From NCBI GenBank assembly GCA_030041955.1, contig JASIAO010000326.1, positions 1 through 61,801 of the forward strand: a stretch of DNA of 61,801 bases. Reading direction: 5' to 3'. The notes under the pieces are model-generated. The model saw nothing but the letters and a program-made list of their open reading frames with translations, was not told where the DNA came from and searched no databases. Numbering within the stretch: the first letter of the stretch is position 1; every line of letters starts with the position of its first letter. Source of the stretch: Acidobacteriaceae bacterium. Its GTDB lineage: Bacteria > Acidobacteriota > Terriglobia > Terriglobales > Acidobacteriaceae. Of this stretch, positions 10,590-44,559 are shown piece by piece. A program made the position numbers and the translations under genes.

Positions 10590-10683
10590 GGAGAGATGGC
10601 CGAGAGGCTGAAGGCGGCGGTTTGCTAAACCGTTATAGGGTTGAAAAGCTCTATCGAGGGTTCGAATCCCTCTCTCTCCGCCA
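10590..10683 (+). tRNA. tRNA-Ser, anticodon GCT
   Basis: The acceptor stem GGAGAGA (10590-10596) pairs with TCTCTCC (10673-10679), followed by discriminator G and an encoded CCA. The D arm, a five-base anticodon stem with loop TTGCTAA (10622-10628, anticodon GCT at 10624-10626), a long class II variable arm and the GGTTCGAATCC T arm (10659-10669 region) are all present. It reads AGC/AGU serine codons. Confidence 0.97.
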
Positions 10684-10816
10684 TGCTGTCAGGCAAAATC
10701 TCAAGATCGGCGAAATTCCTTAAATTTCATGGGTATGCGAGAGGCTGATAAAGTCTCTGTGCACTACAGCGGAAACCCTTCGTCTCTCCTCCGGCGCAAG
10801 TTGTCCGCAGCGGCCT

Positions 10817-24724: not shown

Positions 24725-25150
24725 ATGACTAACCAGGAAATCAATCGAGATCTGGCATGGTTTCGTTACAACCTGCGGCGGTTTCTCCGCTTCAGCGAGG
24801 ACGCGGCGCGGGAATGCGGCGTGACGCCGCAGCAGCACCAGCTGATGCTGGGCGTGGTGGGCTTCACTGAGGCCGGCACCGCGACGATTTCGGAACTGGC
24901 GGAGTTTTTGCAGGAACGGAACAATTCCGTGGTTGGGCTGGTGGGGCGGGCGATGGAGAGCGGTCTGGTGGTACGGCAGTCGGGGGCGACGGACCGGCGG
25001 CAGGTGGTGGTGTCGCTCACGGAGAAAGGCAAATCAGTCCTCGGCCAGCTGACACAGATGCACCACGCCGAGCTGCGACGGGTGCGTGTGGGGTTCCCTA
25101 CAGGATGGGACTGGCCGAGACGCGCGGCGATGAGCAGGAAATCCGCATGA
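24725..25150 (+). CDS. MarR-family transcriptional regulator (second paralogue), first gene of the ClC operon
   Basis: This 141-residue regulator has the same layout as marR1: helix AWFRYNLRRFLRFSEDAAREC, then TPQQHQLMLGVVGF, the recognition helix EFLQERNNSVVGLVGRA and wing TDRRQVVVSLTEKG. I start it at ATG 24725 and not at the GTG inside the operator (24674), because homology begins there. Its TGA overlaps the ATG of the first ClC gene (ATGA at 25147-25150), which implies translational coupling. MarR proteins usually repress their own operon until an acidic or phenolic ligand or oxidant binds. Confidence 0.9.
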   Translation: MTNQEINRDLAWFRYNLRRFLRFSEDAARECGVTPQQHQLMLGVVGFTEAGTATISELAEFLQERNNSVVGLVGRAMESGLVVRQSGATDRRQVVVSLTEKGKSVLGQLTQMHHAELRRVRVGFPTGWDWPRRAAMSRKSA

Positions 25151-26937: not shown

Positions 26938-26983
26938 AGCAGCGGTTGGCGGACTACAAGCAGGGCGAGTACGGAGGTTCACG

Positions 26984-28795
26984 ATGGCTGAGTTTCCGAT
27001 TCCCGAAGCTGCCACACATCCGGAAGCACAATCGCACAAAAAGGGACAGTTTGGAGTAGCGCTGGAGCCGGAGGTAATCCGGATCTGCGGGTATGCTCTG
27101 CTGGTCGGGCTGGTGGGCGGCCTAGTCGCGCAGGGGTTGCTGGAGCTGATTTATTTCTTCACGAACGTTTTTTTCTACGGGCGCTTCTCCTTCGCGATCA
27201 CGAACCCCGCACATAACCATCTGGGGATTTGGGAGATTCTGATTCCGCCGATTGGCGGGCTGCTGGTCGGCGTAATGATCTACCTCTGGGAGCCGACGCT
27301 GAAGGGGCACGGGATTCCGGAAGCAATGGAATCGGTGCTGTTCGGGCATAGCCGAATGCGGCTGCGGGTGGCGGTCCTCAAACCCCTTGCCACGGCGTTT
27401 GCGATTGGAACCGGCGGCCCCTTCGGAGCGGAAGGTCCGATCATCCAGACCGGAGCGGCGATAGGCTCGCTGTTCGGGCAGGCGATTGGATTGACGCCGT
27501 ACTACCGGCGCGTGCTGCTGGCAGCCGGCGCCGCGGCGGGTATGGCGGCGACCTTCACGGCTCCGCTCGCGGGGATTCTGGTGGCAGTGGAACTCCTGCT
27601 GTTCGAATTGAGGGCGCGATCGTTTATCCCGGTCGCGCTGGCCTCCGCGGTGGCGACGGGGGTGCGGGTCCATTTCGTGGGATGGGCGCCGTTGTTTCCA
27701 ACGCCGGCGTTCAAGATGACGGGCATGCGGGAGCTGTGGCTGTTTGCGATCCTTGGCGTGCTGATGGGCATCGTGGGCGTGGTGATGATCCGGGTCCTGG
27801 GGTGGTTGGAGGATTTCTTCGACGAACTGCCGTGGAAGCGGGCGGCGATCTGGTCGCCGGTGATCGGGGCGGTAATCCTGGGAGTATTGGGGTACTTCTA
27901 TCCGCAGGTGCTGGGAACCAGCTACGACACCATCCGGGACATGCTGAATGACCGGCTGACCACGGGGCATCTGGTGGGCATTTCGGTGGCAAAGTTCTGG
28001 GCCCTGACGATCTCGCTGGGCTCTGGAACGACCGGGGGCGTGTTTGCGCCATCGCTGGTGGTGGGGGGTGGGCTGGGCGCAGCGTTCGCGGCAGGGATGC
28101 ACCATTTGCTGCCGACAGTGGTGAGCGATCCGGCTTTCTACGCACTGGCGGCCATGGCAGCGGTCTTCGGCGGGATCGCGCGGGCGCCGTTCACCAGCAT
28201 CGTGTTCCTGTTCGAGCTGAGCCACAACCCCAATGCCCTGCTGCCGCTGGTGGTGTGCGTGATGGTCGCGGACGGATTTGTCCGGCTGTTCAGCCGCGAT
28301 TCGATCATGACCATCAAGCTGGTGAAGCGCGGGCTGATCGTGCTCCAGGATTATTCGGTCCCGGTGCTGATGCGGGCGCGCATCGATCAGGTCATGCGAA
28401 CGCAATTCAACGTTTTTCAGGGAACGGACGAACTCCGCAAGGTGCTGGAGACTTTCGTCCCGGGAGACGCAACCCTGATTCCTGTGGTGGATGCGGCGGG
28501 AGCCTTAATCGGGATCGTGGAGCCGCACGATCTGCTGAGGACAGAGCCGCCGGATCACCACTTCAAGATGCGCGAACTGGCGCGACGAGACTATGTCCTC
28601 GCCCATCCCGGCGAGACCGTGGACCAGGTGCATCGCGACATGATGCTGAAGGATACCGAAAATGTAGTGGTGGTGCAGCCTACGGGGCCGCGCAAGCCGG
28701 TAGGGATCGCCCGAGCTAATGAGATTCTGCAGCTGCGGCGCTGGCTCCTCGAAGAAGAGACTCGCGATTCGCAGCTGGCAGCGGGGAAGGAATGA
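26984..28795 (+). CDS. ClC-family chloride channel/antiporter with CBS domains (second copy)
   Basis: This 603-residue protein is a canonical ClC: GHGIPEAMES (first selectivity motif), GPFGAEGPIIQTGAAIGS with the gating Glu, AAGMAATFTAPLAG, GTTGGVFAPSLVVGG (GxFxP motif) and a C-terminal CBS pair (QVMRTQFNVFQGTDELRKVL, ELARRDYVLAHPGETVDQVHRD). It is more conventional than its upstream neighbour. ClC proteins are homodimers, so the two genes may give two homodimers or a mixed one. It lies 46 bp after the first ClC gene and 31 bp before the cyclopropane synthase gene in one operon. Confidence 0.92.
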   Translation: MAEFPIPEAATHPEAQSHKKGQFGVALEPEVIRICGYALLVGLVGGLVAQGLLELIYFFTNVFFYGRFSFAITNPAHNHLGIWEILIPPIGGLLVGVMIYLWEPTLKGHGIPEAMESVLFGHSRMRLRVAVLKPLATAFAIGTGGPFGAEGPIIQTGAAIGSLFGQAIGLTPYYRRVLLAAGAAAGMAATFTAPLAGILVAVELLLFELRARSFIPVALASAVATGVRVHFVGWAPLFPTPAFKMTGMRELWLFAILGVLMGIVGVVMIRVLGWLEDFFDELPWKRAAIWSPVIGAVILGVLGYFYPQVLGTSYDTIRDMLNDRLTTGHLVGISVAKFWALTISLGSGTTGGVFAPSLVVGGGLGAAFAAGMHHLLPTVVSDPAFYALAAMAAVFGGIARAPFTSIVFLFELSHNPNALLPLVVCVMVADGFVRLFSRDSIMTIKLVKRGLIVLQDYSVPVLMRARIDQVMRTQFNVFQGTDELRKVLETFVPGDATLIPVVDAAGALIGIVEPHDLLRTEPPDHHFKMRELARRDYVLAHPGETVDQVHRDMMLKDTENVVVVQPTGPRKPVGIARANEILQLRRWLLEEETRDSQLAAGKE

Positions 28796-30879: not shown

Positions 30880-31749
30880 CTACTTCCGTACGCGAACCGC
30901 GCGGCTTCGGCGGCTCGTCTTCTTCGGACGAGGCTCTTCGTCGGTGACCTTGTAGGGCCAGCTCGCCTGCGTGAAGGCCGCACCATCCACCCACAGCGTC
31001 TGCCCGCTGACGTAGGAAGCTGCATCCGAGGCGAGGAAAACCACAGAGTTGCCGACGTCCGCGGGGATACCGGCTCTGCCGAGCGGCGCCTGTTTCCCCC
31101 AGATCGAGGCGTACCGCGGCTCCTCTCTGAGCGTGCGATCGATCAGGATGGCTCCGGGCGCGATACAGTTCACGCGAATGCCGTAGCGGCCCAGCTCGAT
31201 CGCCGCCACCTTGGTCAGCATTTCGATGCCGCCCTTGCTGGCGCTGTAGGAAACCAGCCGCGGGAACGGCACTTTGTTGCAGCCGGAGCCGATGTTGATG
31301 ATCGATCCTCCGCCGGAGTCCTTCATCCATGCAGCGGCAGCCTGCAGGCAGAGGAACGATCCCTTGAGATTGGTGTCGATGTCGCGGTCCCAGTCCGCTT
31401 CCGTCAATTGCAGCAGGGGCGCCCAGGTCTGAGTTCCGGCGTTATTCACCAGAATGTCGAGGCGATCGTATTGCTTTGCGAGCGTGGCAAGCATCCGCCG
31501 AACCTGGCGGGATGAGCGCACATCCGCCCGAATGGCGACTGCCTGCCCACCGAGGGTTCTGATTTGTTCTACAGTTTCGCTGGCCGGTTCCGGATCGTTC
31601 AGGTAATTGACGGCCACGGTGCAGCCGGCGCGCGCCAGCTCGATGGCAATGCCCTTGCCTACGCCCTGCGCCGCGCCGGTCACCAGCGCGAGCCTGCCGC
31701 GGAGCGGCTGATCCGAGCCACGGAGCTGTGGAGATTGCGTGGTTCTCAT
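30880..31749 (-). CDS. short-chain dehydrogenase/reductase
   Basis: This 289-residue classical SDR uses NAD(P)(H) to oxidise or reduce an alcohol/ketone. It has the cofactor motif TGAAQGVGKG (residues 24-33), NNAG (102-105), catalytic Ser155, Tyr168 and Lys172 in YSASK, and the C-terminal IAPGAILIDRTL and ADVGNSVVFLASDAASY blocks. A basic tail (RPKKTSRRSRAVRVRK) is unusual and could be a localisation or crystal-packing extension. ATG 31749 follows GAGGA. It lies downstream of the GH2 gene (113-bp gap) and may be the last gene of that unit. It may oxidise a sugar or sugar-acid intermediate, which is inference. Confidence 0.88.
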   Translation of the reverse strand: MRTTQSPQLRGSDQPLRGRLALVTGAAQGVGKGIAIELARAGCTVAVNYLNDPEPASETVEQIRTLGGQAVAIRADVRSSRQVRRMLATLAKQYDRLDILVNNAGTQTWAPLLQLTEADWDRDIDTNLKGSFLCLQAAAAWMKDSGGGSIINIGSGCNKVPFPRLVSYSASKGGIEMLTKVAAIELGRYGIRVNCIAPGAILIDRTLREEPRYASIWGKQAPLGRAGIPADVGNSVVFLASDAASYVSGQTLWVDGAAFTQASWPYKVTDEEPRPKKTSRRSRAVRVRK

Positions 31750-31861
31750 AGTCCTCGTTGTCGCAAACCCTGAATGGCCGCCCGCCACAGCCACCGCCCG
31801 GCCTTCTTCACGATATACCGGAGCGCGAATGATGATTGTTCCATGCTATCGGCCCCGCCGC

Positions 31862-34345
31862 TCAGATCCGTCGGTCCTGGGGCCGCTCAGTGCGGAACGC
31901 TGCATGACCGCTCTTCAGCCCCGACGATGTCGCAGTGACCCGCACGGCTCCCGGCCGGAACGTGGAGCGAACGGCAACCCGCATCAGTCCCCCCTCCGCC
32001 CGTAGCTCGTGGTCGCCGGGCGCATGCCACGCCGCGGGCTTGCTCGGGTCAACATAGAAGTTATACGAGCCGCGGTAATCTCCAGGACCGGAGACGGAGA
32101 ATTCGAGCTTATTGTCTGCGTCGACGCACACAATGCCGTCGCGATCGACAATCTGCGCGGTAATCAGCGCTACGTCAGAGCCGTTGGCACGCACGGGGAA
32201 CTGGGTTCCGTCGGGTCGGGTCAGCTGCGGCTCGACGGTGAGAAGAATGCGCGCCGGCTTGCCGGAAGTGCGTCGCTCGTCCGCGCACACGGGTTGGCCC
32301 GCGTGGTCCAGACCAACTGCCTTCAGGCGACCTGGTTCCCACGAAATCTTTTCCCACGTGCAGCGCATTTCCGCATCGGGCGTGCGGCGTCCCTGACTTA
32401 TTCCGTTGACGAATAACTCCACCTGCGGGCAATTACTCCAGGCATCGACGTTCTGAATGCCAGAAAGATTCCAGCTACTTTGAAGAGTAACTCCCGGACG
32501 TTTGGAATAGGGCAGCCACAGCGCATTCTGGAAGATGCGGTACGGCAGCTTCGGGAAGCGGTTGCCGTCCATGGCGCACGAGCCGAGGGACTTCTGATGA
32601 GTCATGCCGTTCAGATATGGCATGAAGGGCGATTCCATCGTCTCGGCAAGCATCCAGAAGATCCATCCGCAGGCGCGATCCTGAATATTGGACACGTATT
32701 GTTTCGTAAAGAAGTCGGCAGACTCCTTCTCGTGCGCATAGTCGAAACGCGCGTTGCCGCGGTAATAGCACTCCATGTTCATCGACGGCGAGCCCGGGAC
32801 TTTCTTATAGTGCGCGGTGTAGCCGATCATGATTTTCCTGTCGGCCGGCCAGTAATCGGAAGTATCGCGGCTTTCGACGATGCGGCCGCCGTCGGGATCC
32901 CAGCGATCGGCCAGCTCCTGAGTGACTCGCGGCGAATAAATGTCGGTGTGATGCTGCTGGGAGGCCAGGCCGTTATTGGATTCCCACACCGCGACCGATG
33001 GATGATTGCGGAAGTAAATTATCGTGTCGCGGTCGTATTCCTTCTTGTAAGTCAGCGCCGGTTCGCTATAGAGCGCCCACTCGTTGTCGCCGCTGTCCTG
33101 GATCACCAGCACACCGTAGGCATCGCAGGCGGACACGGTTTCCGGCATGGCGGGAATATGGCCCACACGCAGGGTGCTGCCTCCGCAGCCGGCGATCAGC
33201 CGCACGTCGTTCCACTGCAGCTCCGCCGGCACCGCCGAGCCAAGAGCCGGATACGTATTGCGCTGCCCGAAGCCGTTCAGCAGATGTTTGTCGCCGTTCA
33301 CGTATCCGTAATCTGAGTCCCAGCGGAGGGTGCGGATCCCAAAGGGAGATTCGACCCGATCGACTTCCGCGCCGTTCAGTTGCACGATGCTGACGGCGCG
33401 ATAGAGATATGGGCTGCCCGAGCTGCTGTTATTCGGATACCAGAGCCGCGGCTGCGGCACCTCGCCGGACTGATCGAACAGGGCCATCGCCCCGGGCGGG
33501 ATGGTCCTGGTTGCGGTCATGGACAGGGCGGTGTTGCCGTCCGCATCGAGGAGTTTCGTCGTCAGCATGGCGTCGCAGGCCGAATCGCTCTGATTCTCGA
33601 CATTCGTCCGAGCGCGCAACTGCGCCCCGTCGGCGTTGGCCGCGAGCGTCGCGAGGTACGTTCCCCATTTCTGCATCGGCGAGTAAGCATTCAGGGGAAT
33701 GTGGACCGGATGGGTGATGTGCAGATACACCGGGCAGACGATGCCGCCGAAGTCCATGCCCAGAGCGAAGGTGCTGCCGAACCCCGGCCAGGTGAAGAAG
33801 CTGTGTTCCGCATTGGAGACGCGCACCGCAATCACGTTGTCCGCGTCGTAGCGCAGATCGGCGGTGATATCGAGAGCAAAAGGAATGAAGCCGCCAACGT
33901 GCGTGACTTCCTGCGGCTGCGGAACTGCCGTATTGCCGGGGTAGAAGCGTCCGTTGACGTATACGGCGGCGGCAAGATCGACGCCCTGGAACTCCAGCAG
34001 GAATCGCTTCCCCCGGTCGCGTCCGTCGACAGAGAAATGTTTGCGGTACCAGACCGTTCCCTGAAACGCGTTGTTCAGCGAGAGGTTCTGGTAAGTGTCG
34101 GTGTCGTTGAAGCAGTGGGGCACACCGACTTTCGTCCACGCAGCGTCGTCGAATGCGGTGTCCCTGGCGGCGGGGTAGGGATCCCCCCTGAGGAAGAGCC
34201 AGGGAGTGTTTCCCAGGTCGATGATCTTTCTGGGTGCGGCGCCGTCAGCCGCCCAAAGACTCCGCGCCTCCCCTGATAGCAGCGGCAGAGCGAGGCTGCA
34301 GGCTGTCAGTCCCTTCAGAAATTCGCGACGATCTGTGCTGGTCAT
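31862..34345 (-). CDS. Tat-exported glycoside hydrolase family 2 enzyme with atypical acid/base site
   Basis: This 827-residue GH2 protein has a twin-arginine signal (TDRREFLKGLTACSLALPLL) and the GH2 order: jelly-roll domain (SFDVFLNG-type segment AAVYVNGRFYPGN), Ig-like domain, TIM barrel (YRDTIIYFRNHPSVAVWE) and an Ig-like C-terminus. In most GH2 enzymes the barrel reads W-x-x-G-N-E with the acid/base Glu last. Here residues 454-459 are W-E-S-N-N-G, so the usual Glu is missing and a Glu sits at 455 instead. This occurs in a recognisable GH2 subgroup, so the enzyme may still be active. The nucleophile is probably the Glu in MECYYRG. Substrate unknown (plant or bacterial beta-glycan). A 25-bp motif lies 118 bp upstream. 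Confidence 0.85.
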   Translation of the reverse strand: MTSTDRREFLKGLTACSLALPLLSGEARSLWAADGAAPRKIIDLGNTPWLFLRGDPYPAARDTAFDDAAWTKVGVPHCFNDTDTYQNLSLNNAFQGTVWYRKHFSVDGRDRGKRFLLEFQGVDLAAAVYVNGRFYPGNTAVPQPQEVTHVGGFIPFALDITADLRYDADNVIAVRVSNAEHSFFTWPGFGSTFALGMDFGGIVCPVYLHITHPVHIPLNAYSPMQKWGTYLATLAANADGAQLRARTNVENQSDSACDAMLTTKLLDADGNTALSMTATRTIPPGAMALFDQSGEVPQPRLWYPNNSSSGSPYLYRAVSIVQLNGAEVDRVESPFGIRTLRWDSDYGYVNGDKHLLNGFGQRNTYPALGSAVPAELQWNDVRLIAGCGGSTLRVGHIPAMPETVSACDAYGVLVIQDSGDNEWALYSEPALTYKKEYDRDTIIYFRNHPSVAVWESNNGLASQQHHTDIYSPRVTQELADRWDPDGGRIVESRDTSDYWPADRKIMIGYTAHYKKVPGSPSMNMECYYRGNARFDYAHEKESADFFTKQYVSNIQDRACGWIFWMLAETMESPFMPYLNGMTHQKSLGSCAMDGNRFPKLPYRIFQNALWLPYSKRPGVTLQSSWNLSGIQNVDAWSNCPQVELFVNGISQGRRTPDAEMRCTWEKISWEPGRLKAVGLDHAGQPVCADERRTSGKPARILLTVEPQLTRPDGTQFPVRANGSDVALITAQIVDRDGIVCVDADNKLEFSVSGPGDYRGSYNFYVDPSKPAAWHAPGDHELRAEGGLMRVAVRSTFRPGAVRVTATSSGLKSGHAAFRTERPQDRRI

Positions 34346-34462
34346 AGTCCTCCGACCGGTGCGGTGGCCGATTTACGAAGTTGGCTGATCCCTGGGCACG
34401 AGCAGGTGGAAACGCTGCCCGAGCCAGGCTATCTCAGTCAGCAGCCCGTGTCTCTGCCCTGG

Positions 34463-34487
34463 TTGACGCGGTTCTGTATTCCATTGC
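34463..34487. promoter_or_regulatory. 25-bp motif, copy 1 (upstream of the GH2 gene)
   Basis: TTGACGC is followed by GG and then TTCTGTATTCCATTGC. The same sequence occurs at 39163-39187 with CT in place of GG (23 of 25 identical), also about 110 bp upstream of a minus-strand gene. It is a candidate binding site for the adjacent AraC regulator. Confidence 0.6.
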
Positions 34488-34497
34488 CGTCCCGCTC

Positions 34498-35325
34498 TCA
34501 CCGGTGTTCTCTTTCGCTCAGGATCTGCTCGAAGAACAGCAGGCTGTCGAGAAGGTGCTCGCGCCAGTAAGTCCAGCCATGATTGCCGGCGAAGACTTCA
34601 AAGGTGTGGGGAATGCTTCGTTCGGCGAGCGCCCGATGCAGGGACTCGTTGCCTTTGAGCAGAGGGTCGTCCTGCCCGCAGTCGAAACGGAGGGGAGGGA
34701 GCTGCGCGCGGCGCCGATCGACCCAGTAAAGAGGATCGAGTTCGTGGTCATTGGCCGATTGAAATGGGCTCACGTCGCGGACAAACTGCCCGAATTGCGC
34801 AGCCGCCGTAATGGCTGAATGGGCCGAGATGCCGCAAAAGCGCTCAGCGTACTTTGCGCCGAGCCGGAGCGCACCGTAGCCGCCCATCGAGAGGCCTGCC
34901 AGCAGGAAGTCTGCGCCCGCCGGAGCGAACACCGCCTCAATGCACTGCATCACGTCTTCGCAGATCCATCGCTCGAAATCCTGGTCCGGGCCGGGCAGGT
35001 AGCCGGTGCCGTCGCCTCGAAGGCCGTCCGATGGAGCCACGATCAGCATCGGCCGGATGCGCCTTTCGCGGATCAGGGTAAGCGCGGTGCGATGCGCTGC
35101 ACCCTTGTGGAACCAGGCCCAGTGGCTGCCATAAACGCCATGCAACAGCAGCGCAACCGGCGTTCTGCGCGACCCATCGATTCCAGGAGGGATGAAGAGG
35201 CTCACGTCGCCGCGGCCGCGCAGCGCCGGACTGTAGAAAGTCAGGTGGCGCAGATAGTCGTGTTCGGAAGCCGGATCCGAGAGTTCTACCGGGGAGAAAC
35301 GGCCTGGCAGCGTGGAGACGTCCAT
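34498..35325 (-). CDS. esterase of the PF00756/FrmB-type alpha/beta-hydrolase family
   Basis: This 275-residue alpha/beta hydrolase has nucleophile Ser146 in GLSMGGYG, an Asp in FDCGQDDPLL (about 215) and His in GNHGWTYW (about 247), and lacks a signal peptide. The family includes S-formylglutathione hydrolase (FrmB/EstD) and feruloyl/acetyl-xylan esterases, so it could cleave a thioester or a plant ester. Its ATG shares one base with the TAA of the upstream ADH gene (TAATG at 35323-35327), so the two are translationally coupled. Coupling to a class-III-like ADH favours a formaldehyde-oxidation role, with ester cleavage as the alternative. Confidence 0.82.
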   Translation of the reverse strand: MDVSTLPGRFSPVELSDPASEHDYLRHLTFYSPALRGRGDVSLFIPPGIDGSRRTPVALLLHGVYGSHWAWFHKGAAHRTALTLIRERRIRPMLIVAPSDGLRGDGTGYLPGPDQDFERWICEDVMQCIEAVFAPAGADFLLAGLSMGGYGALRLGAKYAERFCGISAHSAITAAAQFGQFVRDVSPFQSANDHELDPLYWVDRRRAQLPPLRFDCGQDDPLLKGNESLHRALAERSIPHTFEVFAGNHGWTYWREHLLDSLLFFEQILSEREHR

Positions 35326-36395
35326 TACGGAAGCAGCACTCCTTTGGCGTTCACTCCACGCCGCATGTCTTCGAAGGCCTCAGCCAGGCCAGAAAGCGGA
35401 TAGGTGCGGGTCACCATCTCATCCAGCTTCAGCCGCCGCTGCCGGTACAGCGAGAGCAGAACGGGAAAATCGATGAATGGCCGGCACTGCCCGTACAGCG
35501 GATTGATATACCGCTTGTCCCATTCGAAAAGCTCCATATTCACGGGGACAACTTCCTCCACGCCGCTCACGGCCACTGCGCATCCGCCGTTGCGCACCAT
35601 GGCCAGGGGCGAAACGCCCAATGCCGGCACCGCCGTGCACTCGAAAGCGTAGTCCGCGCCGCGCCCGGTCAGTTCGTGAACCTTCTGGGCCGCGCGCAGC
35701 AGTCCTGCGTCGTCAGGCTCCGCCTGAATGGTATGCGTGGCGCCAAACTGGCGCGCCAGCCCCAGCCGGTTGGGGTTCAGATCGATGGCAATAATCATGC
35801 CTGCGCAGGCGTGGACTGCACCCTGCACCACGCTGAGTCCCACTCCACCGGCGCCCAGCGCCACCACCGAGCATCCCTTTTCCACCATTGCGGCATTGAC
35901 CACCGACCCGAATCCGGTCATGACACCACAGCCGAGAATCGCGGCCGAGGGAAACGGAATCTCCACGTCGATCTTCACCACCGCCTGTTTGGGCACAACC
36001 GCATGTGACGCCATCGTTCCCAGATGAAACGAGGTGGCGACAGGCCTGCCGCGGTGTTCGAACCTCTCGGGCGGCACCGTGGGCTTCCGCTCGCAGATGT
36101 TCTCTGCGCCACGGCGGCACTGGAAGCAATCGCCGCACGGGATCGCCCAGTTGAGCAGAACGCGGTCGCCCGGCTGCACATGATCGACGCCGTCCCCGCA
36201 CTCGAGGACAATGCCCGCGCCTTCATGGCCCATGATCAAAGGCTTACCCCACGACATCGAATCGAAATCGGTGTGGCAGACGCCGCTCGCTTTGATTTCG
36301 ACGAGGACTTCATTCCCCTGGGGGCTGTCTATTCGCACCTCATCCAGTGTGAAGTTGCCCTGGCCGTCGGTGACGATTGCATTTGCTTTGATCAT
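35325..36395 (-). CDS. zinc-dependent alcohol dehydrogenase, class III-like
   Basis: This 356-residue MDR dehydrogenase has all zinc ligands: catalytic Cys40 (GVCHTD) and His57-Glu58 (GHEGAG), and structural Cys87, Cys90, Cys93 and Cys101. The NAD-binding Rossmann motif is VVALGAGGVGLSVVQGA (about residues 175-195). The sequence most resembles S-(hydroxymethyl)glutathione/formaldehyde dehydrogenases and related aryl- or long-chain alcohol dehydrogenases. It lies 18 bp downstream of the ferredoxin-reductase gene and overlaps the esterase gene by one base. It would oxidise the alcohol or formaldehyde adduct made by an upstream oxygenation; the substrate is not known. Confidence 0.9.
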   Translation of the reverse strand: MIKANAIVTDGQGNFTLDEVRIDSPQGNEVLVEIKASGVCHTDFDSMSWGKPLIMGHEGAGIVLECGDGVDHVQPGDRVLLNWAIPCGDCFQCRRGAENICERKPTVPPERFEHRGRPVATSFHLGTMASHAVVPKQAVVKIDVEIPFPSAAILGCGVMTGFGSVVNAAMVEKGCSVVALGAGGVGLSVVQGAVHACAGMIIAIDLNPNRLGLARQFGATHTIQAEPDDAGLLRAAQKVHELTGRGADYAFECTAVPALGVSPLAMVRNGGCAVAVSGVEEVVPVNMELFEWDKRYINPLYGQCRPFIDFPVLLSLYRQRRLKLDEMVTRTYPLSGLAEAFEDMRRGVNAKGVLLP

Positions 36396-36413
36396 GATCA
36401 GTCCCCCCTTTTG

Positions 36414-37586
36414 TCAGGAGCCCAAAACAACGGAGGTGACCGGCCTGCAGCTGCACGGCAGGCAGGTTCCGGGATCCGGCGTCGCTCCGGTCGGGTGCAG
36501 ATAGGCGACCTCTCCGCTCACCAGCGTCGTCTGGCAGGTGGCGCAGTCGCCGTACCGGCATCCGTAGTCCAATTCGATCCCGTTGGCCTCAGCCAGCTCG
36601 AGCAGCGTGCCCGAGTTTCCCGTCCACGGAACGGTGACGCCCTCCCGCAGAAAGGTCACGCTGATCTCCGATTCCCGGGGCGGCTCTTCGTCGGCCATCG
36701 CCGCACGCAGCGACAGGCTCGACGGCCCAAATGACTCTGTTCGTATCCGGCCATTTTCGACACCCGCCTCCAGCAGTTCCGCCGCAACCGCCTGCATCAT
36801 GCCGGGCGGCCCGCACAGGAAGTACTCCATCCGCCTCTCGGCGGCCAGCTGCCGCAACAGCGAGGCATCGATCCGCCCCGCGGCGTCGTAATCAGCGCCG
36901 AGACGGTCTTCCGGACGCGGCTGCTCGTACAGGATGTGCATGCGCAGGTTTGCGTGGCGCCCGCGCAGCTGCTGCAGATGCTCTCTGAACACATGATCGC
37001 CGCCGTGGCGCAGCGCAAACAGGAAATGGATCTCTCGTGTGCATCCCGCCCGGCTCGCGGCGTTCAGCATGCTGATCATGGGGGTTACACCGATGCCGCC
37101 TGCGATCAGGGCCACGGGGTGCGTCTCGGAGAGATCCAGACAAAAGCGGCCGTTCGGCATTTTGGCCTGAAGGATGTCGCCGGACTGCAGGTGGTCGTGA
37201 CACCAGGTCGAGCTCAGCCCGGCGGGCAGATCCGGACGGTCGGCAGGCGGCCCCTGACGCTTGATCGTCAGGCGGTACCGCCGTCCGTCGAAGGCGTCGG
37301 AAAGCGTATAGCATCGGATGATCGGCTTCGGCAGGCCTCGCATAGCGAGCCGAATGGGAAGATGCTGCCCGGGAAGATACGGCGCCAGCGCGCCGCCGTC
37401 CGCCGGCACCAGATAGAACGACTTTGCGGTTTCGCTCTCGGGGACAATCGCATCGACCAGAAAGTCGCGATACGACACCCAGCTTGCTTCCCGGCCATTC
37501 GTCAACGTCACACGCGTCCCAGGTTGTTCAGAGGATGTTGGTAGTGGATGGGGGAAACTGCGCACATCCGCTACCAATGCGGGCAA
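36414..37586 (-). CDS. oxygenase reductase with FAD, NAD(P) and 2Fe-2S domains
   Basis: This 390-residue protein has a flavin-binding barrel (RCYTLS at about 85-90), an NAD(P)-binding domain (GGIGVTPMISML at about 160-172, CGPPGMM at about 265) and a C-terminal plant-type 2Fe-2S ferredoxin domain (DYGCRYGDCATCQ with three cysteines, then CLPCSC). This is the layout of electron-transfer partners of ring-hydroxylating, P450 and diiron oxygenases. It begins nine bases after the diiron-protein stop, which implies a two-component system. No other electron-transfer protein is seen in the operon, so the ferredoxin domain may act directly on the diiron protein. Confidence 0.92.
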   Translation of the reverse strand: MPALVADVRSFPHPLPTSSEQPGTRVTLTNGREASWVSYRDFLVDAIVPESETAKSFYLVPADGGALAPYLPGQHLPIRLAMRGLPKPIIRCYTLSDAFDGRRYRLTIKRQGPPADRPDLPAGLSSTWCHDHLQSGDILQAKMPNGRFCLDLSETHPVALIAGGIGVTPMISMLNAASRAGCTREIHFLFALRHGGDHVFREHLQQLRGRHANLRMHILYEQPRPEDRLGADYDAAGRIDASLLRQLAAERRMEYFLCGPPGMMQAVAAELLEAGVENGRIRTESFGPSSLSLRAAMADEEPPRESEISVTFLREGVTVPWTGNSGTLLELAEANGIELDYGCRYGDCATCQTTLVSGEVAYLHPTGATPDPGTCLPCSCRPVTSVVLGS

Positions 37587-37595
37587 GCGATCTCG

Positions 37596-39056
37596 TCATC
37601 CGGCGACCTGCTTCAGATCCGCGCGAGTGTTTTCATAGGTGGTGCTGTAGGCAAGGAGATTCGGATCGGGCTCGATCCCCCAAAACCGGCACGCGTCGCG
37701 GTAAACTTCCGGCCACCAGTTGCGGTGTTCCGTCAGTCCCTGTTCGCGCCAGCGCGCCCAGTCCACCAGAATGCGCGACCACGCGCTGTCTCCAAACGCC
37801 AGCGCCTGTTTTTGGCCGCCCAGTTCCGGAACCAGCCAGTCGCGCCCGATCCGCGCATGCAGAATCTCATCCGCCCAGTCGTAGTCCTGAATCAGCGCCG
37901 TCAGGCGGTTCGCCGTGGCCACGGCTACGGCCCACTCGTACTCTTTGCCTGTCTTTTTAGGCATCAGTCCCTGCTCGATGGCATAGAGCACGCCGTGCCG
38001 CTCCAGGGGCGTCAACTGCGTGTTGAGCCCGAGGGACCACGTGAAGTTGAGAGGGATCTTTGTCCAGTCGATGCCCATGGAGACGAAGCCGATCTCGCCC
38101 ATCATGGCGTGCCGCGCTTCGTCCCATAACTGGCGGGTCATGTCCCGGTAATACTCCCAGGGCTTGCCAGGGGTCTCCACCAGGATGCTCGACATCATTT
38201 CGGGAACGTCGATCTCCCGCAGGCGCTTGAAGTACAGCATGATCGACTTGGGCAGCGCCGGGATTTCCGGATCGAACAGGAACGCCTCCGCATTGACCCC
38301 CATGTTGTAGGGATCGCGGAATCGCTCATCGCGCTTCGGCACGCCGTCATAGCGGTAAGGAACCGACGAGTACATGCGCCGAGGCTCGATGCTATTTTTC
38401 GGCTGCGTTCCATCCAAGTCGCCCGCAGCGCCCAGCAGCTCTTCCAGCAGCGCCGTCCATTCGGCCAGAGCGGAGCGGGCTGCGTCATCGACCAGGCATG
38501 CGATCGCCTGCTGACCGTATTCGAGAACATCCTGCATCTCGATCAGCGTCAACCGGCAAACGCGCCAGGTCGGGTGATCGAAGAGCTTACTGGTGTCGGC
38601 CACCAGGCGCTCCAGCGCCCGTACCACGGCGGGGATGGCATAGCCGTAGAGCCCAAGAACCAGCGCAGGCGTCTGCGGCGCGCACAGGATTTCGTCGAAG
38701 AAGGCGTCCAGCGCCGCGTCGGGGCAAACCTCCAGCCCGTAAGGAGGCTGGCGCATCTCCCGCACTCGGTTGGCGAAGGGCTCGACGTGCTCGGCACAAT
38801 AATGCGCGTGCAGGCTGAACGCCATCTTGAGCTCGTAAACGGGCATGGCCGCGATGCGCGCCACAAAGATCATGTGCAGCCGCTTCAACGACCAGTGCAA
38901 CCGCAGCTGCCGCGCGACAGACTCCGCGACGGTCAGGCCCCGGGAACTGGCCTCGCTCATCGAATGCAGGCCGACCAGGGGTGGAAGATGAGCATGGCCG
39001 GTGTAATCGGCCATGCGCTGCCGAACCTGCTCATCGTTAATCGGCTGCTGGCTCAT
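37596..39056 (-). CDS. putative ferritin-like diiron oxygenase, unassigned family
   Basis: This 486-residue helical protein has no signal peptide. Two ExxH motifs are seen, E313-A-R-H316 (WDEARHAMMGE) and E397-I-L-H400 (ADEILHARIG), each on a helix as in ferritin-like diiron sites. The other ligands may come from E75 and H83/H85 (VYELKMAFSLHAHYC) or E173/E178. I cannot match it to a named diiron family such as soluble methane/phenol hydroxylase, AurF or MiaE. The gene begins at ATG 39056 with GAAGGAG upstream; an in-frame extension reaches 39116. It is the first gene of a unit with its reductase, ADH and esterase, so it is the candidate catalytic component. Confidence 0.7.
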   Translation of the reverse strand: MSQQPINDEQVRQRMADYTGHAHLPPLVGLHSMSEASSRGLTVAESVARQLRLHWSLKRLHMIFVARIAAMPVYELKMAFSLHAHYCAEHVEPFANRVREMRQPPYGLEVCPDAALDAFFDEILCAPQTPALVLGLYGYAIPAVVRALERLVADTSKLFDHPTWRVCRLTLIEMQDVLEYGQQAIACLVDDAARSALAEWTALLEELLGAAGDLDGTQPKNSIEPRRMYSSVPYRYDGVPKRDERFRDPYNMGVNAEAFLFDPEIPALPKSIMLYFKRLREIDVPEMMSSILVETPGKPWEYYRDMTRQLWDEARHAMMGEIGFVSMGIDWTKIPLNFTWSLGLNTQLTPLERHGVLYAIEQGLMPKKTGKEYEWAVAVATANRLTALIQDYDWADEILHARIGRDWLVPELGGQKQALAFGDSAWSRILVDWARWREQGLTEHRNWWPEVYRDACRFWGIEPDPNLLAYSTTYENTRADLKQVAG

Positions 39057-39162
39057 CTGGAGGATCTCCTTCTCACTGTCTGCAGGTCCGATGGTGCTGC
39101 GTACGGCACCGACCACTTCTGAGGAGGATATCGCCGCCCCATTCAGGAAATCCTCTCAGAGA

Positions 39163-39187
39163 TTGACGCCTTTCTGTATTCCATTGC
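39163..39187. promoter_or_regulatory. 25-bp motif, copy 2 (araC/diiron divergent region)
   Basis: TTGACGC is followed by CT and then TTCTGTATTCCATTGC, matching 34463-34487 at 23 of 25 positions. It is 107 bp upstream of the diiron gene and 55 bp upstream of the AraC gene. This position fits an activator site controlling both units. Confidence 0.6.
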
Positions 39188-39228
39188 GCTGCTTTCGAAT
39201 TTTCTGTCGTCAGATTGGCAAACGTGGT

Positions 39229-39234
39229 TAAAAT
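39229..39234 (+). promoter_or_regulatory. araC -10 element, leaderless arrangement
   Basis: TAAAAT ends seven bases before the ATG at 39242 and no ribosome-binding site precedes the codon. This supports 39242 as the start and a leaderless transcript. Confidence 0.4.
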
Positions 39235-39241
39235 TGCGCCT

Positions 39242-40171
39242 ATGAGGGCGCATTTCGAGAAGGTCACATCCGGGTCCGCCTCATTGCTCGCATTTGAACG
39301 CGTTGATTCGGAGTTCCCCTTCTACTGGCATTACCATCCGGAGTTCGAGCTAACCCTGATTGTCGACAGTCACGGTCAGCGCCTCGTCGGCGACGGTATT
39401 GGAGATTACGGCCCCGGAGATCTGGTCCTTCTCGGGTCCAACCTCCCCCACAGCTACCGCTCCGGTCCGGTCAAAATGCCGGACCAGAAATGTCACCGCG
39501 CCGTCGTCATCCAGTTCCGCGAGGATTGTCTCGGGCCGGAATTTTTCAAAATTCCGGAGATGAAGCCGATTATGCGCCTCCTGCAGCGCTCCGCCTGCGG
39601 CCTGTCCTTCAGTCACACCGCCTCGGGCCGCATCGCAGCCGGCAAGATGAAGGAGTTCCTCTCCTTCTCACCTGCTCGGCGTATCGTCGAGCTGCTCGAA
39701 ATCCTCGTCATTCTCGCCTCCGAGCCGAATCCGGCGACGCTCTCCACCGATTACGTCAGGCCCATGTGCCGCATCGAGGATCAGCAGCGCATCGAAGCCA
39801 TCTGCGCTCACCTCAGCGCGCACTTCGACGAGGAGATTGACTACGCCAGGCTCGCTGACAAGCTTCACATGGATCAGGCTTCCCTCTGCCGCTTCTTCAA
39901 GCGCGCGACCGGGCGCACTATGACTGCCTACGTGAACGAGCTGCGCGTGGGCGCGGCCGCTCAGCTGCTGACCACCACCGATCTCAGCGTGCTCGACATC
40001 GGCTTCCAGGTGGGCTTCGGCAACTACTCCAATTTCAACCGCCAGTTCAAGCGCATCAAGGGATTTGGTCCGCGCACCCTCCGCCAGCAGTTCCGTTCCC
40101 ATGCCGAGCCGGAGTTCACGCTTCCGCCGGGAATGGACGCCGACCCCCTCCCTTCCCGCATGCGGGCCTGA
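39242..40171 (+). CDS. AraC-family transcriptional regulator with cupin sensor domain
   Basis: This 309-residue regulator has an N-terminal cupin-like sensor (PFYWHYHPEFELTLIVDS, GDYGPGDLVLLGSNLPHSY) typical of sugar-responsive AraC proteins and a C-terminal double helix-turn-helix (residues about 200-300; DYARLADKLHMDQASLCRFFKRATG and LSVLDIGFQVGFGNYSNFNRQFKRIKG). I prefer ATG 39242; a TTG at 39215 would add nine residues but has no better signal. It is divergent from the diiron operon and upstream of the amylase operon, so it is the likely regulator of both. The shared 25-bp motif supports this. Confidence 0.92.
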   Translation: MRAHFEKVTSGSASLLAFERVDSEFPFYWHYHPEFELTLIVDSHGQRLVGDGIGDYGPGDLVLLGSNLPHSYRSGPVKMPDQKCHRAVVIQFREDCLGPEFFKIPEMKPIMRLLQRSACGLSFSHTASGRIAAGKMKEFLSFSPARRIVELLEILVILASEPNPATLSTDYVRPMCRIEDQQRIEAICAHLSAHFDEEIDYARLADKLHMDQASLCRFFKRATGRTMTAYVNELRVGAAAQLLTTTDLSVLDIGFQVGFGNYSNFNRQFKRIKGFGPRTLRQQFRSHAEPEFTLPPGMDADPLPSRMRA

Positions 40172-40217: not shown

Positions 40218-40358
40218 GTTCAGCCAACCGAGTACACAAATCTCTCAATTCCGATGAGGAATTCTCTATTCCCGGCGTATTACGCTGAGCGCGCCGAAAC
40301 AACTCTGCACGCGTGCGTTCCGGCTCGTTCCCCAGCTGATCCTCCGCGGAGATTTTCG

Positions 40359-42524
40359 TTGTCCCCAGTGTGCCTGCGTTTTAAGAAGCTGTTCGATCGC
40401 AGCCTTTGCCTGCTTGCCCTGCTGACGGCAGGTGTGGCCGCGCCCGCGCTGCACGCGCAGGATTTCCGGAAGCAGGTGATCTATCAGATCATCACCGACC
40501 GGTTCTTCGACGGCGACCGAACGAACAACAATCCGCCGCAGAGCCCGGGCATGTACGACCCCACGAAGACCAACTGGCAGGCCTACTGGGGTGGCGATTT
40601 CGCCGGCATTCAGGACAAGTTGCCTTATCTGAAGCGCATGGGCATCACCGCCATCTGGATCTCTCCTTCGGTGGACAACATCAACGTGCCCATGACGGGC
40701 CCCGACGGCAAGCCCGTTCCTTATCTTTTTGCTCCCTATCACGGCTACATCAACCGCGATTTCATGCGCGTCGAGGAGCACTTCGGCAGCAGCCGCAACG
40801 ACTGGAAAGCTTTCGACTCGATGACGGCTGCCGCACATGCCGACGGCATCAGGATCGTTCTCGACTTCTCGCCGAACGATTCGAACCTGACGTTCACGGC
40901 CGAACACGGCAATCTCTACGACAATGGCAAACTGCTGGCGACCTACGATCACGATCCGCAGGGCATGTTTCATCACAACGGGATGCTGACGAACATCAAT
41001 GACGCCTATCAGCTCCAGTACTACAACGTTTTCGGGCTCGCCGATCTGAACCAGGACAATCCCACCATTGACCGCTACATCAAGGACTCCATCCACCAGT
41101 TTCAGGACCATGGCGTTGATGCGGTCCGCCTCGATGCCGTCCGCCACATTACCTGGGGCTGGTCGTACAGTTTCGCCAACTCCGTCTACAGCTACAAGCC
41201 CAGCTTCATCTTCGGCGAATGGTTCATGGGCGGACCGCAGGACCCGTTCTACTCGGATGCCTGCAAGTTCGCGAATCACAGCGGCATGTCTCTGCTGGAT
41301 TATCCCTTTGCCATCGCCATCCGCGACGTCTTCGCAAACGACAAGGGATTTTCTGAAATCCAGAAGATGCTCGACAGAGAGGACCGGAACTTCGCTCATC
41401 CGCTCGACCTCGTCACTTTCGTCGACAATCACGACATTCCGCGGCTCCTCTCTGTAAAGGACAACCGCCATCGCCTCGATGAGGCGGAGGCGCTGGTGCT
41501 CACCGCGCGCGGAATTCCCGTCATCTACTACGGCGACGAGCAGTATCTGCACAACGATACCGATGGCGGGCGCGACCCTTATACCCGGGTCTGGATGTCT
41601 TCCTATGACACCCACACCGTCGGCTTCCGCCTGGTGCAGCGGCTGGCTGCGCTGCGCCAATCCAACGATGCGCTCGCTTACGGCAGCATGCAGATGCTGC
41701 AGATCGAGCCGGATGTCTTCGTTTTCGAGCGACGATTTGCCAACGATGTGGTGCTGGTGGCCATCAACAAGAGCGAAGCAGCTTCCGCCACGATCCCCGC
41801 GCTGGCAACCAGCCTGCCACCTGGGAACTACCGCGATGTTCTCACCGGCCTGATGGATGGGAGCCGACTGCGCGTTCGCCGCGGCGCAGGCGGCCAATCG
41901 GAGACGGGACCGCTGGCGCTGCCTCCCCACAGCGTTTCCGTGTGGCAGTCCGCGCGGTCCGCGAGCGGCCCGGAAGTGGGGTCGATTGGGCCGACGATCG
42001 GCCAGCCCGGCATGCAGATCACGATTGCCGGCCAACACTTCGGCGCCTCGCAAGGTTCGGTTCTGGTGGGCAGCGCCGCTGCCGCCGTGCGCTCCTGGAC
42101 CGATGAGACGGTCACGTTCACCATTCCTGCAGTGCCTCCGGGGCAATATTCCGTCCGCCTGCGGACCGCTCAGGGATCCGAGTCCAATCCAGTTCCCTTC
42201 ACCACGATTGAGAACCGGCTGATCCCGGTCACATTCACGGTGGATAATGTCCCTCTGCTGCCGGGCGGCTCCGTCTATTTGACAGGGAATACAGTCGGGA
42301 CCGGACAATGGAAAACAGACCCCAGCATCGCCCCAGGTCCTTTTCTTTGTCCTCATTCGCCTACGTGCTTCCTCGATATTTCCGTTCCTGCCGGCAAGGC
42401 GCTGGAATTCAGAGTTTTTCTGATCGCCCGCGATGGATCCCTGCACTCGGAGAGAGGCGGCAAGCACGCCTACGCCGTTCCCAACAGCGGAACCGGCAGC
42501 GTAACCGTGGACTGGCAGCGATGA
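40359..42524 (+). CDS. exported alpha-amylase-family (GH13) enzyme with IPT and CBM20-like domains
   Basis: This enzyme of about 721 residues is expected to hydrolyse or transglycosylate alpha-1,4-glucans outside the cytoplasm. The signal peptide ends near APALHAQD. The GH13 barrel carries the nucleophile Asp259 (VRLDA), acid/base Glu287 (FGEWF) and transition-state Asp359 (VDNHD). An IPT/TIG domain (about 550-630) and a CBM20-like C-terminal module (FTVDNVPLLPGGSVYLTGN) follow, the same order as in cyclodextrin glucanotransferases and maltogenic amylases. TTG 40359 has GGAG seven bases upstream; the frame extends to ATG 40254 without a good site. It starts an operon with the GH127-like gene 37 bp downstream. 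Confidence 0.9.
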   Translation: MSPVCLRFKKLFDRSLCLLALLTAGVAAPALHAQDFRKQVIYQIITDRFFDGDRTNNNPPQSPGMYDPTKTNWQAYWGGDFAGIQDKLPYLKRMGITAIWISPSVDNINVPMTGPDGKPVPYLFAPYHGYINRDFMRVEEHFGSSRNDWKAFDSMTAAAHADGIRIVLDFSPNDSNLTFTAEHGNLYDNGKLLATYDHDPQGMFHHNGMLTNINDAYQLQYYNVFGLADLNQDNPTIDRYIKDSIHQFQDHGVDAVRLDAVRHITWGWSYSFANSVYSYKPSFIFGEWFMGGPQDPFYSDACKFANHSGMSLLDYPFAIAIRDVFANDKGFSEIQKMLDREDRNFAHPLDLVTFVDNHDIPRLLSVKDNRHRLDEAEALVLTARGIPVIYYGDEQYLHNDTDGGRDPYTRVWMSSYDTHTVGFRLVQRLAALRQSNDALAYGSMQMLQIEPDVFVFERRFANDVVLVAINKSEAASATIPALATSLPPGNYRDVLTGLMDGSRLRVRRGAGGQSETGPLALPPHSVSVWQSARSASGPEVGSIGPTIGQPGMQITIAGQHFGASQGSVLVGSAAAAVRSWTDETVTFTIPAVPPGQYSVRLRTAQGSESNPVPFTTIENRLIPVTFTVDNVPLLPGGSVYLTGNTVGTGQWKTDPSIAPGPFLCPHSPTCFLDISVPAGKALEFRVFLIARDGSLHSERGGKHAYAVPNSGTGSVTVDWQR

Positions 42525-42561: not shown

Positions 42562-44559
42562 ATGAATCGTCGCGAATCGCTGAAGCTGCTCACCGCCGCG
42601 GCGAGCTCCGCATTCCTGAAACCCTGGCCGGCGCTGGCGCTTTCTGGCCCTCACGGCACCGGCGATCCGTCCGCTTCCGACGCTGCTGTCGCAACCCAGC
42701 CCGTTTTCTCCTGGCTGCCGGTGGGAGCTGTCAGGCCTGCCGGCTGGATTCGCGCGCAAATGCTGCGCGACCTGAATGAGGGTTTTGCCGGTTGCCTGGG
42801 CCGGCTCTGTCATGAAGCCTCGTCCGACATCTTCGTGACAAATCGGAATTCGCTGCACTCGCAGAATGTTGCCAACCGCAACGGTGTCGCGTGGTGGAAC
42901 GGCGAAACCGAGGGCAACTGGCGCGCCGGTTTCATCATGATGGCGTACCTTACCGGAGATCCACGCACCATGCAGGAGGCCGATGACTACGTGCGCCACA
43001 TCCTCGCCTCGCAGGACAGCGACGGCTACCTCGGGATCTTCGCGGCGGATTCGCGCTTCGTGCATCCAGGTGAGCTCTGGACGCAGGCGTGCCTGCTGCG
43101 CGGCCTGCTCGACTATGCCGATCTCGCCGGGAATCCCGCCGTGCAGACCGCCGTCCAGCGCTGCGCCGATCTCATCGTTTCAGTCTATGGCTCCGGCAAA
43201 ACGCCGGTTCCGTGGGGCGAGAATCACGACCTGATGATTGTCGACGTGATGGAGCGGCTCTTCGAGGGCACCGACGAGGCCCGCTACCGTGACTTCTCCG
43301 TGTGGTTGTACGACGACTGGAGCCGCAACGTCAGCGGCGCCGACACCAGCCTTCCCTCGCTGCTGAATCGGGAGGCGCCCTTCGTGCAGCACGGTGTGCA
43401 CACCTATGAGTCCATTCGCGTCCCCCTGTGGCTGGCAGCCGCCACCGGCCGCCCCGATCTCGGGCAGGCCGCGCGCAATGCCATGGACAAGCTGAGCCGC
43501 TATGCCGAGCCGGGCGGGTCCGGCGTGAGCGAAGAGCTGATCGGCAATCTGGCTCCGAACCCGACTTCGACCGAATACGAATACTGCGCCACGAAAGAGA
43601 TTCAGTTCACGCTGGAATCCGCGCTGCAGAAGACGGGGATCGCGGCCTACGGCGACAAGGCGGAGAAAGTCTGGTTTAACGACGCGCAGGGCGCGCGAGC
43701 TGCCGACGGGCGCGCCATCGCCTATCTCTCGCCCGATAATCGTCTGCGCTGCAATGGCCTCACACCGGATGGCACGCGCGCCGAGCCGCGCAACAAATTC
43801 TCGCCCACCCACGCCGACGTCGCAGTCTGCTGTAATCCGAACGCCGCCAACGTCGCCGCGCTCTATGTCCGCGGCATGTGGATGCGTCGCGACAACGACA
43901 CTCTGGCCGCTCTGCTGTATGGCCCTTGCCGCGTTTCCACGCAGATCGGAGGCGTCGATGTCGCGATTGAGGAGCAGACAGCGTATCCCTTCGAGGACCA
44001 GGTGAGCATCGCCGTGCATCCGGAAAAGCCGGCGCGCTTTTCGCTGCTGCTCCGAGATCCCGGCTGGTCGGACGGCACCCAGGTGAGCTGCCCCAATGCC
44101 CGCATCGCCCGCGAAGGCAGCTACTGGCGCGTGACGAAGGAATGGAAAGCGGGGGACACGGTTCACGTGAGATTCACCCACGAAGTCCGCACCCTGACCT
44201 CCGTCAACGGTGAGATTGCGCTCGAGTACGGAGCGCTGGTCTTCGCTCGGCCCATCGCCTCCACCCAGACCGTGATCCGCACCTATCCGCTTCCAGGCTT
44301 TGCCGACACGTACGACGAACCGGATCCGGGCAGGCAGGAAGAACTCGTCCTCACAGCGGAATCGCAGTGGCAGGCCTTTGGATTCGAGCCGCGGCGGACC
44401 GGAGAGGTTGCGGACCTCCAGTATCCGTTCGACAGACCTGCTTTCGTCCTGCGCGGCTCCATGATCGGTGCCAGTGACCGGCAGCCGGTTGCCGTCGATC
44501 TGGTTCCCCTGGGCAACGCTCCCTTGCTGCGCAGGACGACGCACGCGATTTCATCCTGA
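42562..44559 (+). CDS. GH127-like glycoside hydrolase (beta-L-arabinofuranosidase fold)
   Basis: This 665-residue protein begins with a Tat/Sec-type signal (NRRESLKLLTAAASSAF). It has the (alpha/alpha)6-barrel sequence pattern of the GH127/146 clan. In HypBA1 the catalytic zinc is held by one Glu and three Cys, of which a cysteine is the nucleophile. Here the equivalent residues are visible as E340-Y-C342 (STEYEYCATKE) and the paired Cys423-Cys424 (VAVCCNPNAAN), so the site appears intact. A plausible substrate is beta-L-arabinofuranosyl or a related furanosyl unit of plant polysaccharide or glycoprotein. It lies between the amylase and MFS genes (37 bp and 33 bp gaps). Confidence 0.85.
   Translation: MNRRESLKLLTAAASSAFLKPWPALALSGPHGTGDPSASDAAVATQPVFSWLPVGAVRPAGWIRAQMLRDLNEGFAGCLGRLCHEASSDIFVTNRNSLHSQNVANRNGVAWWNGETEGNWRAGFIMMAYLTGDPRTMQEADDYVRHILASQDSDGYLGIFAADSRFVHPGELWTQACLLRGLLDYADLAGNPAVQTAVQRCADLIVSVYGSGKTPVPWGENHDLMIVDVMERLFEGTDEARYRDFSVWLYDDWSRNVSGADTSLPSLLNREAPFVQHGVHTYESIRVPLWLAAATGRPDLGQAARNAMDKLSRYAEPGGSGVSEELIGNLAPNPTSTEYEYCATKEIQFTLESALQKTGIAAYGDKAEKVWFNDAQGARAADGRAIAYLSPDNRLRCNGLTPDGTRAEPRNKFSPTHADVAVCCNPNAANVAALYVRGMWMRRDNDTLAALLYGPCRVSTQIGGVDVAIEEQTAYPFEDQVSIAVHPEKPARFSLLLRDPGWSDGTQVSCPNARIAREGSYWRVTKEWKAGDTVHVRFTHEVRTLTSVNGEIALEYGALVFARPIASTQTVIRTYPLPGFADTYDEPDPGRQEELVLTAESQWQAFGFEPRRTGEVADLQYPFDRPAFVLRGSMIGASDRQPVAVDLVPLGNAPLLRRTTHAISS

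Follow-up and report, generated by a model that had tools for sequence, protein, structure and literature searches.

Genes of the operon

We analyzed a 61,801-nt window of Acidobacteriaceae DNA (contig JASIAO010000326.1), in which a single minus-strand operon and a divergent AraC-type regulator span positions 30880 to 40171; all coordinates refer to the whole window, and genes were called from open reading frames and their translations. In the order of transcription, the operon encodes a ferritin-like diiron protein, a reductase, an alcohol dehydrogenase (ADH), an esterase, a family 2 glycoside hydrolase (GH2), and a short-chain dehydrogenase/reductase (SDR), and all six frames are open (Table 1). 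The diiron and reductase genes are separated by 9 bp and the reductase and ADH genes by 18 bp, while the ADH and esterase genes overlap by one base. This gene order and spacing agree with a first-pass annotation of the same DNA, which had not included the AraC gene. Taken as a whole, the operon probably encodes a module that removes the methyl group of a methyl-ether sugar by oxidation.

The reductase consists of FAD, NAD, and C-terminal 2Fe-2S domains, as identified with Pfam. The 9-bp gap upstream of it holds only with a TTG start; the homologous reductase at locus L042 starts about 36 residues later, which would fit a GTG codon at position 37478 of the window and makes the start codon of the reductase uncertain. 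A reductase homologue adjoins the diiron gene at L042, L049, L051, L054, L055, L062, L070, L096, and L098, and a ferredoxin alone stands in place of the full reductase at L048 and L113.

Table 1. Features of the operon and its surroundings in the 61,801-nt window
Feature	Coordinates	Strand	Basis
Putative diiron monooxygenase, tandem ferritin-like domains (residues ~38-220 and ~240-486)	37596..39056	-	AlphaFold model, DUF455 profile relation
Codons of predicted iron ligands E286, E313, H316, E361, E397, H400 (E281 alternative first ligand)	37857..38201	-	Invariance and model helices
Reductase, FAD/NAD domains and C-terminal 2Fe-2S ferredoxin; start uncertain	36414..37586	-	Pfam NAD_binding_1, Fer2
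Zn-dependent ADH, FoADH/ZoADH type	35325..36395	-	444/430 bits to PDB 8h2a/8h2b
Alpha/beta-hydrolase esterase (PF00756), ADH partner, cytoplasmic	34498..35325	-	Pfam Esterase 1.3e-20
GH2 glycoside hydrolase with twin-arginine-like signal	31862..34345	-	Pfam GH2 domains; sequence MTSTDRREFLKG
SDR oxidoreductase	30880..31794	-	Pfam
AraC-family regulator, divergent from operon	39215..40171	+	Pfam HTH_18 8e-21
GH13 with CBM20, neighbor, context only	40254..42524	+	Pfam; kept beside AraC in L007, L042
GH127-type beta-L-arabinofuranosidase, context only	42562..44559	+	Pfam

Fold, predicted iron ligands, and family of the diiron protein

An AlphaFold model of the diiron protein, built on an alignment of twelve homologues, shows two tandem helical bundles with a mean predicted local distance difference test (pLDDT) score of 88 for the whole chain. 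The N-terminal bundle resembles bacterioferritin, aldehyde-deformylating oxygenase (ADO), and the beta subunit of toluene-4-monooxygenase (T4moH beta; Z of about 16), and is devoid of a ferritin-type ligand set both in the model and in the homologue alignment. The C-terminal bundle, folded alone, reached a pLDDT of 92 and matched the same broad structural group with Z values of 9 to 10, a range that for helical bundles supports the fold class only. This domain is a four-helix bundle carrying E, ExxH, E, and ExxH on successive helices (residues 267 to 294, 300 to 326, 350 to 363, and 384 to 412, bearing E281/E286, E313xxH316, E361, and E397xxH400, respectively), and the ligand set is unchanged in 89 of 89 homologues. 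The ferritin-like diiron fold anticipated for this protein in the first-pass annotation is thus borne out by structure prediction, and the C-domain would carry the diiron site, in models that contain no metal. Its fold matches are about equal for aldehyde-deformylating oxygenase, azoxy synthase, and toluene and methane monooxygenases; in Foldseek searches, run for the full-length model as well as for the C-domain by itself, nothing had an E value below 0.001, and the named matches are fold-level only.

The protein has no match among NCBIfam models, including hydroxylases, and Pfam returned no hydroxylase and a sub-threshold similarity to DUF455 alone (PF04305; 15.2 to 15.3 bits, where the gathering score is 34.3); no effector-like gene lies between the genes of the operon. 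A sequence search of the PDB gave nothing real: a match to a "Tet4 variant" was rejected, because that construct is repetitive and the hit was one 53-residue alignment occurring three times, at about 8 bits apiece. Profile comparison with DUF455-related acidobacterial proteins (L010 and L011) gave a probability of 99.5%, in an alignment that spans both domains and matches up the metal motifs, at an identity of 25% or less; the L010 protein itself scores above the DUF455 cutoff. Fold, ligand set, and profile relation together therefore indicate a diiron-type protein whose family, a distant relative of DUF455, has no name, in accordance with the earlier reading, which could not name it either. 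The DUF455-related genes themselves (L010, 8194-9507; L011, 8390-9670) are diiron paralogues with a gene resembling ribokinase, by eye, adjoining or near them.

An ADH-esterase pair common to three oxygenases

Among solved structures, the ADH is closest in sequence to PDB entries 8h2a and 8h2b (444 and 430 bits; the next entry scored 188), which are FoADH and ZoADH (PMC10033563), and it lies well apart from class I and class III enzymes. FoADH and ZoADH adjoin a cytochrome P450 that demethylates 6-O-methyl-galactose, with an esterase gene regularly nearby, and a ZoADH knockout is crippled in growth on 6-O-methyl-galactose, though not on galactose (PMC10033563). Neither enzyme acted on formaldehyde, be it alone or combined with any of a set of thiols that included glutathione, mycothiol, and bacillithiol; the authors left an unknown thiol open as a possibility (PMC10033563). 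In the window, esterase and oxygenase genes also adjoin the ADH gene, the demethylase role of the oxygenase being putative.

The first-pass annotation had described a class-III-like ADH and an FrmB-type esterase that together would handle formaldehyde. The ADH scored 212 bits against TIGR02818 (class III/S-(hydroxymethyl)glutathione dehydrogenase, FrmA), for which the cutoff is 543.95, and the esterase scored 26.8 bits against TIGR02821 (S-formylglutathione hydrolase, FrmB; cutoff, 281.7), being closer to CE1/feruloyl esterases in PDB comparison. A five-residue loop of human class III ADH, which bears glutathione contacts, is absent from the window ADH on sequence comparison. Both names, judged by sequence, hold only as superfamily labels, and the formaldehyde-handling role, already at odds with the inactivity of FoADH and ZoADH on formaldehyde and thiols, gains no support from the family cutoffs or from the missing loop. 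A scan of the bacterium's own genome returned no match above the class III ADH cutoff; in it the window ADH scored 211 bits versus 543.95.

To view the pair independently of the diiron gene, loci drawn by the ADH alone were compared (47 in total: 32 in 299 Flavobacteriaceae, 7 in 347 Acidobacteriota, and 8 in 338 Verrucomicrobiota). A homologous esterase was nearby in 46 of them, most often directly downstream, and 37 had a recognized oxygenase no more than 6 kb away, in every case encoded on the same strand as the ADH: a P450 at 21 loci, a PhyH iron/2-oxoglutarate (Fe/2OG) dioxygenase at 10 (one also with a P450), and a diiron protein at 6. Pfam confirmation covered five of the PhyH proteins and one P450, all of which were confirmed. 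The PhyH genes stand beside the ADH at L152, L154, L166, L168, L169, L181, L199, L200, L208, and L209, nearly always with the esterase; PhyH enzymes remove ribose 2'-O-methyl groups (PMC12709175), and the proteins at these ten loci are candidate sugar O-demethylases of a third kind. Sharing its slot with P450 and PhyH, both families with proven demethylases, the diiron protein fills a known O-demethylase slot, and we consider it quite probable that it carries out sugar O-demethylation. Thus, the proposal that a diiron protein replaces the P450 in demethylation gains support from the ADH type, the 37 of 47 loci, the predicted iron ligands, and the ferritin-like fold, whereas the thiol and formaldehyde role given to the ADH-esterase pair does not. 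At three verrucomicrobial ADH-esterase pairs with no recognized oxygenase (L203, L204, and L206), biotin-synthesis-like genes were seen beside two.

The three oxygenase labels interleave on the ADH tree, on which at least 10 changes are needed. A PhyH gene is found both in the closest neighbors of the diiron clade to which the window belongs (L199 and L200) and in L152, which is sister to the diiron clade of Maribacter and Arenibacter; L207, sister to the diiron clade of Opitutales, has a P450 instead. DHDPS-family and GDSL esterase genes are common to the L152 PhyH cluster and the diiron cluster of Maribacter, as are the ADH (66%) and the esterase (63%), so that one oxygenase seems to have been swapped for another in a single pathway. 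Among Flavobacteriaceae, the low-scoring P450 type seen at these loci occurred in 14 of 20 ADH-positive and 0 of 20 ADH-negative genomes; within this sample of 40, the diiron-bearing Maribacter had no P450 match in its genome.

At least 539 loci of the diiron family are present in GTDB genomes. Detailed neighborhood counts refer to the best 80 of these, which are mostly from Verrucomicrobiota and also from Acidobacteriota, Bacteroidota, and Planctomycetota. The order diiron-(FNR-)Fer2-ADH-esterase recurs in Acidobacteriota, Verrucomicrobiota, and Bacteroidota (L042, L048, L051, L055, L062, L096, L098, L113, and L205), and recurrence in three phyla makes it more than chance; a divergent AraC gene homologous to that of the window is found at most of these module loci, diiron and ADH alike. 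Outside full modules, diiron homologues mostly stand alone, and in some Opitutaceae (L082, L089, L103, and L117) the diiron gene is followed by an SDR and an esterase, with no ADH. In the related strain G009, the diiron gene is present twice (L007/L038 and L008/L039), and the two copies have lost complementary sets of partners: one is without reductase and ADH, the other without reductase, esterase, and GH2. Within Acidobacteriota the family is patchy (any diiron match in 14 of 396 genomes, 10 of them strong); five of the seven ADH-positive genomes also carry the diiron gene, which in two of the five (G220 and G415) lies elsewhere in the genome. Among Flavobacteriaceae, 1 of 32 ADH-positive and 0 of 20 ADH-negative genomes carry it. 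Common descent inflates all of these co-occurrence counts, those of the P450 type included, but they agree in direction.

Proposed demethylation route and its relation to known systems

In the route proposed here, the exported GH2 would free a methylated sugar, probably outside the cytoplasm, and the sugar would enter the cell. The FAD/2Fe-2S reductase would relay electrons from NADH to the diiron site, at which the ferritin-like protein would activate O2 and hydroxylate O-CH3 to O-CH2OH; we infer this reaction from the fold, the ligand set, the reductase, and the replacement of a known demethylase. Tentatively, we suggest that the ADH may then oxidize this hemiacetal, giving a formate ester of the sugar, and that the esterase would cleave the ester to sugar and formate, so that free formaldehyde would be avoided; the sugar would thus act as its own carrier, in the place that glutathione has in the reactions of S-hydroxymethylglutathione dehydrogenase and formylglutathione hydrolase. 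We favor this last step because the pair is common to three unrelated oxygenases whose only shared product would be a hydroxymethyl ether (or formaldehyde), because an ADH that does not act on formaldehyde, thiols present or not, is nevertheless required, and because it persists with PhyH, which needs no NADH. Its persistence with PhyH also led us to judge a role of the ADH as a mere recycler of NADH unlikely. FTHFS was not found in the bacterium's own genome. The broader proposition, that more than 500 diiron enzymes demethylate sugars and that the ADH-esterase pair, which P450 and Fe/2OG demethylases would use too, yields formate by way of a sugar formate ester and without free formaldehyde, is put forward with greater reserve still.

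Several points weigh against this interpretation. Ten of the 47 ADH-drawn loci are without a recognized oxygenase, and about 60 of the best 80 diiron loci are without a recognized ADH or esterase nearby. Against the hemiacetal step in particular, FoADH and ZoADH favor aromatic aldehydes and have a narrow active site (PMC10033563), and FJS, a PhyH enzyme that was tested, releases formaldehyde in vitro (PMC12709175). The activity of every member of the diiron family and the substrate of the window ADH are, moreover, predictions.

The sugar probably differs between organisms, and the plant sugars of the first-pass annotation are candidate substrates only. Around the operon, Pfam identifies glycoside hydrolases of families GH2, GH13, GH127, and GH39, and the GH2 gene stays with the diiron gene in the related locus L038/L007. 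In Opitutales (L096 and L098, about 6000-9000), genes for L-rhamnose isomerase (RhaA) and an FGGY kinase directly precede the diiron module, and in Maribacter/Arenibacter (L051, L055, and L062, about 4800-15600) the module lies among GlcNAc 2-epimerase, DHDPS-family (sialic-lyase-like), and sialate-esterase-type genes, which suggests, as leads only, methylated rhamnose and O-methylated sialic-type sugars as the respective substrates; a literature search turned up no paper on the demethylation of 8-O-methyl sialic acid. In the window GH2, the usual acid/base motif W-x-x-G-N-E reads W-E-S-N-N-G, possibly marking an altered or inactive hydrolase. Further along the window, a group II intron reverse transcriptase/maturase gene (46356-47858, minus strand) lies between glycan genes, and two tandem genes for CLC-type chloride channels with CBS domains occupy 25105-28795.

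An alternative that retains the demethylation of the sugar by the diiron protein is that ADH and esterase clear free formaldehyde via a thiol, as in FrmA/FrmB or mycothiol pathways. Their superfamilies are those of thiol-dependent formaldehyde oxidation, the own genome, having no class III ADH above the cutoff, would need another route, and an unknown thiol was left open for FoADH and ZoADH; the inactivity of those enzymes with formaldehyde and many thiols, the missing loop, and scores below the curated family cutoffs nevertheless make this alternative unlikely. We also regard as rather unlikely that the diiron protein carries out a different oxidation of a sugar or an aglycone (hydroxylation of a ring or C-H bond, or desaturation), with ADH and esterase acting on the product: ferritin-like diiron enzymes catalyze many reactions, the fold matches do not single out one of them, and many diiron homologues lack the ADH-esterase pair, but the slot is common to the proven methyl-sugar demethylase P450 and to PhyH, a family with proven sugar O-demethylases. 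A methoxy-aromatic substrate, with the ADH reducing or oxidizing an aromatic aldehyde and the esterase acting as a feruloyl esterase, would fit the aldehyde preference of FoADH and ZoADH and the nearest PDB relatives of the esterase; it is improbable, however, given an operon without genes of aromatic-ring catabolism, the glycoside hydrolases here and the rhamnose- and sialic-acid-type genes elsewhere, an esterase sequence with no visible signal peptide, and the need for ZoADH on a methyl sugar. A non-catalytic role of the ferritin-like protein in iron or stress handling, with its place in the operon due to chance, would suit the ligand-free N-terminal bundle and is very improbable, since the C-domain ligands are complete in all 89 homologues, a dedicated reductase or ferredoxin usually follows the diiron gene in full modules, and the protein takes the place of known oxygenases.

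Polysaccharides of plants, algae, fungi, and bacteria contain O-methyl sugars, yet to our knowledge no demethylation route has been studied well apart from that of the P450 acting on 6-O-methyl-galactose. Literature searches, with most subscription journals outside their reach, returned nothing relevant on a diiron sugar demethylase or DUF455 and no description of the diiron family or of an ADH-esterase pair common to three oxygenases. If the sugar-demethylation reading is correct, the diiron proteins of Acidobacteriota, Verrucomicrobiota, Bacteroidota, and Planctomycetota would be a new enzyme class and would show where soil and marine methyl-ether carbon gets unlocked; the hemiacetal step, in turn, offers a testable answer to why a formaldehyde-inactive ADH is needed for growth on methyl sugars.

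With respect to known systems, DUF455, a family with no assigned function, shares with the window protein the aligned motifs D-E-x-R-H, E, and D-W-A-D-E-x-x-H as well as both domains, although the window protein falls below its gathering score and has low identity to the L010/L011 proteins. Toluene-4-monooxygenase, soluble methane monooxygenase (sMMO), and PaaABC(D)E likewise combine a ferritin-like diiron site, a FAD/2Fe-2S reductase, and a second, noncatalytic bundle comparable to the beta subunit; in the window, however, both bundles are in one polypeptide, no gene for a gamma or effector subunit is present, and the diiron sequence is too far from any Pfam or NCBIfam oxygenase model. PhyH enzymes of the PHYHD1/FJS type (PMC12709175) also O-demethylate sugar methyl ethers, and their relatives stand beside the same ADH-esterase pair, but they are mononuclear Fe/2OG enzymes, not homologous to the diiron protein, and their known substrates are nucleosides. 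The 6-O-methyl-D-galactose system of Zobellia and Formosa (PMC10033563, citing Reisky et al. 2018), composed of a P450 with ferredoxin and reductase, FoADH/ZoADH, and an esterase, resembles the window operon in its orthologous-type ADH, homologous esterase, divergent AraC gene, sugar-degrading context, and electron supply to the oxygenase, whereas the window operon, from a soil acidobacterium, has an unrelated ferritin-like diiron oxygenase and a fused FAD/2Fe-2S reductase.

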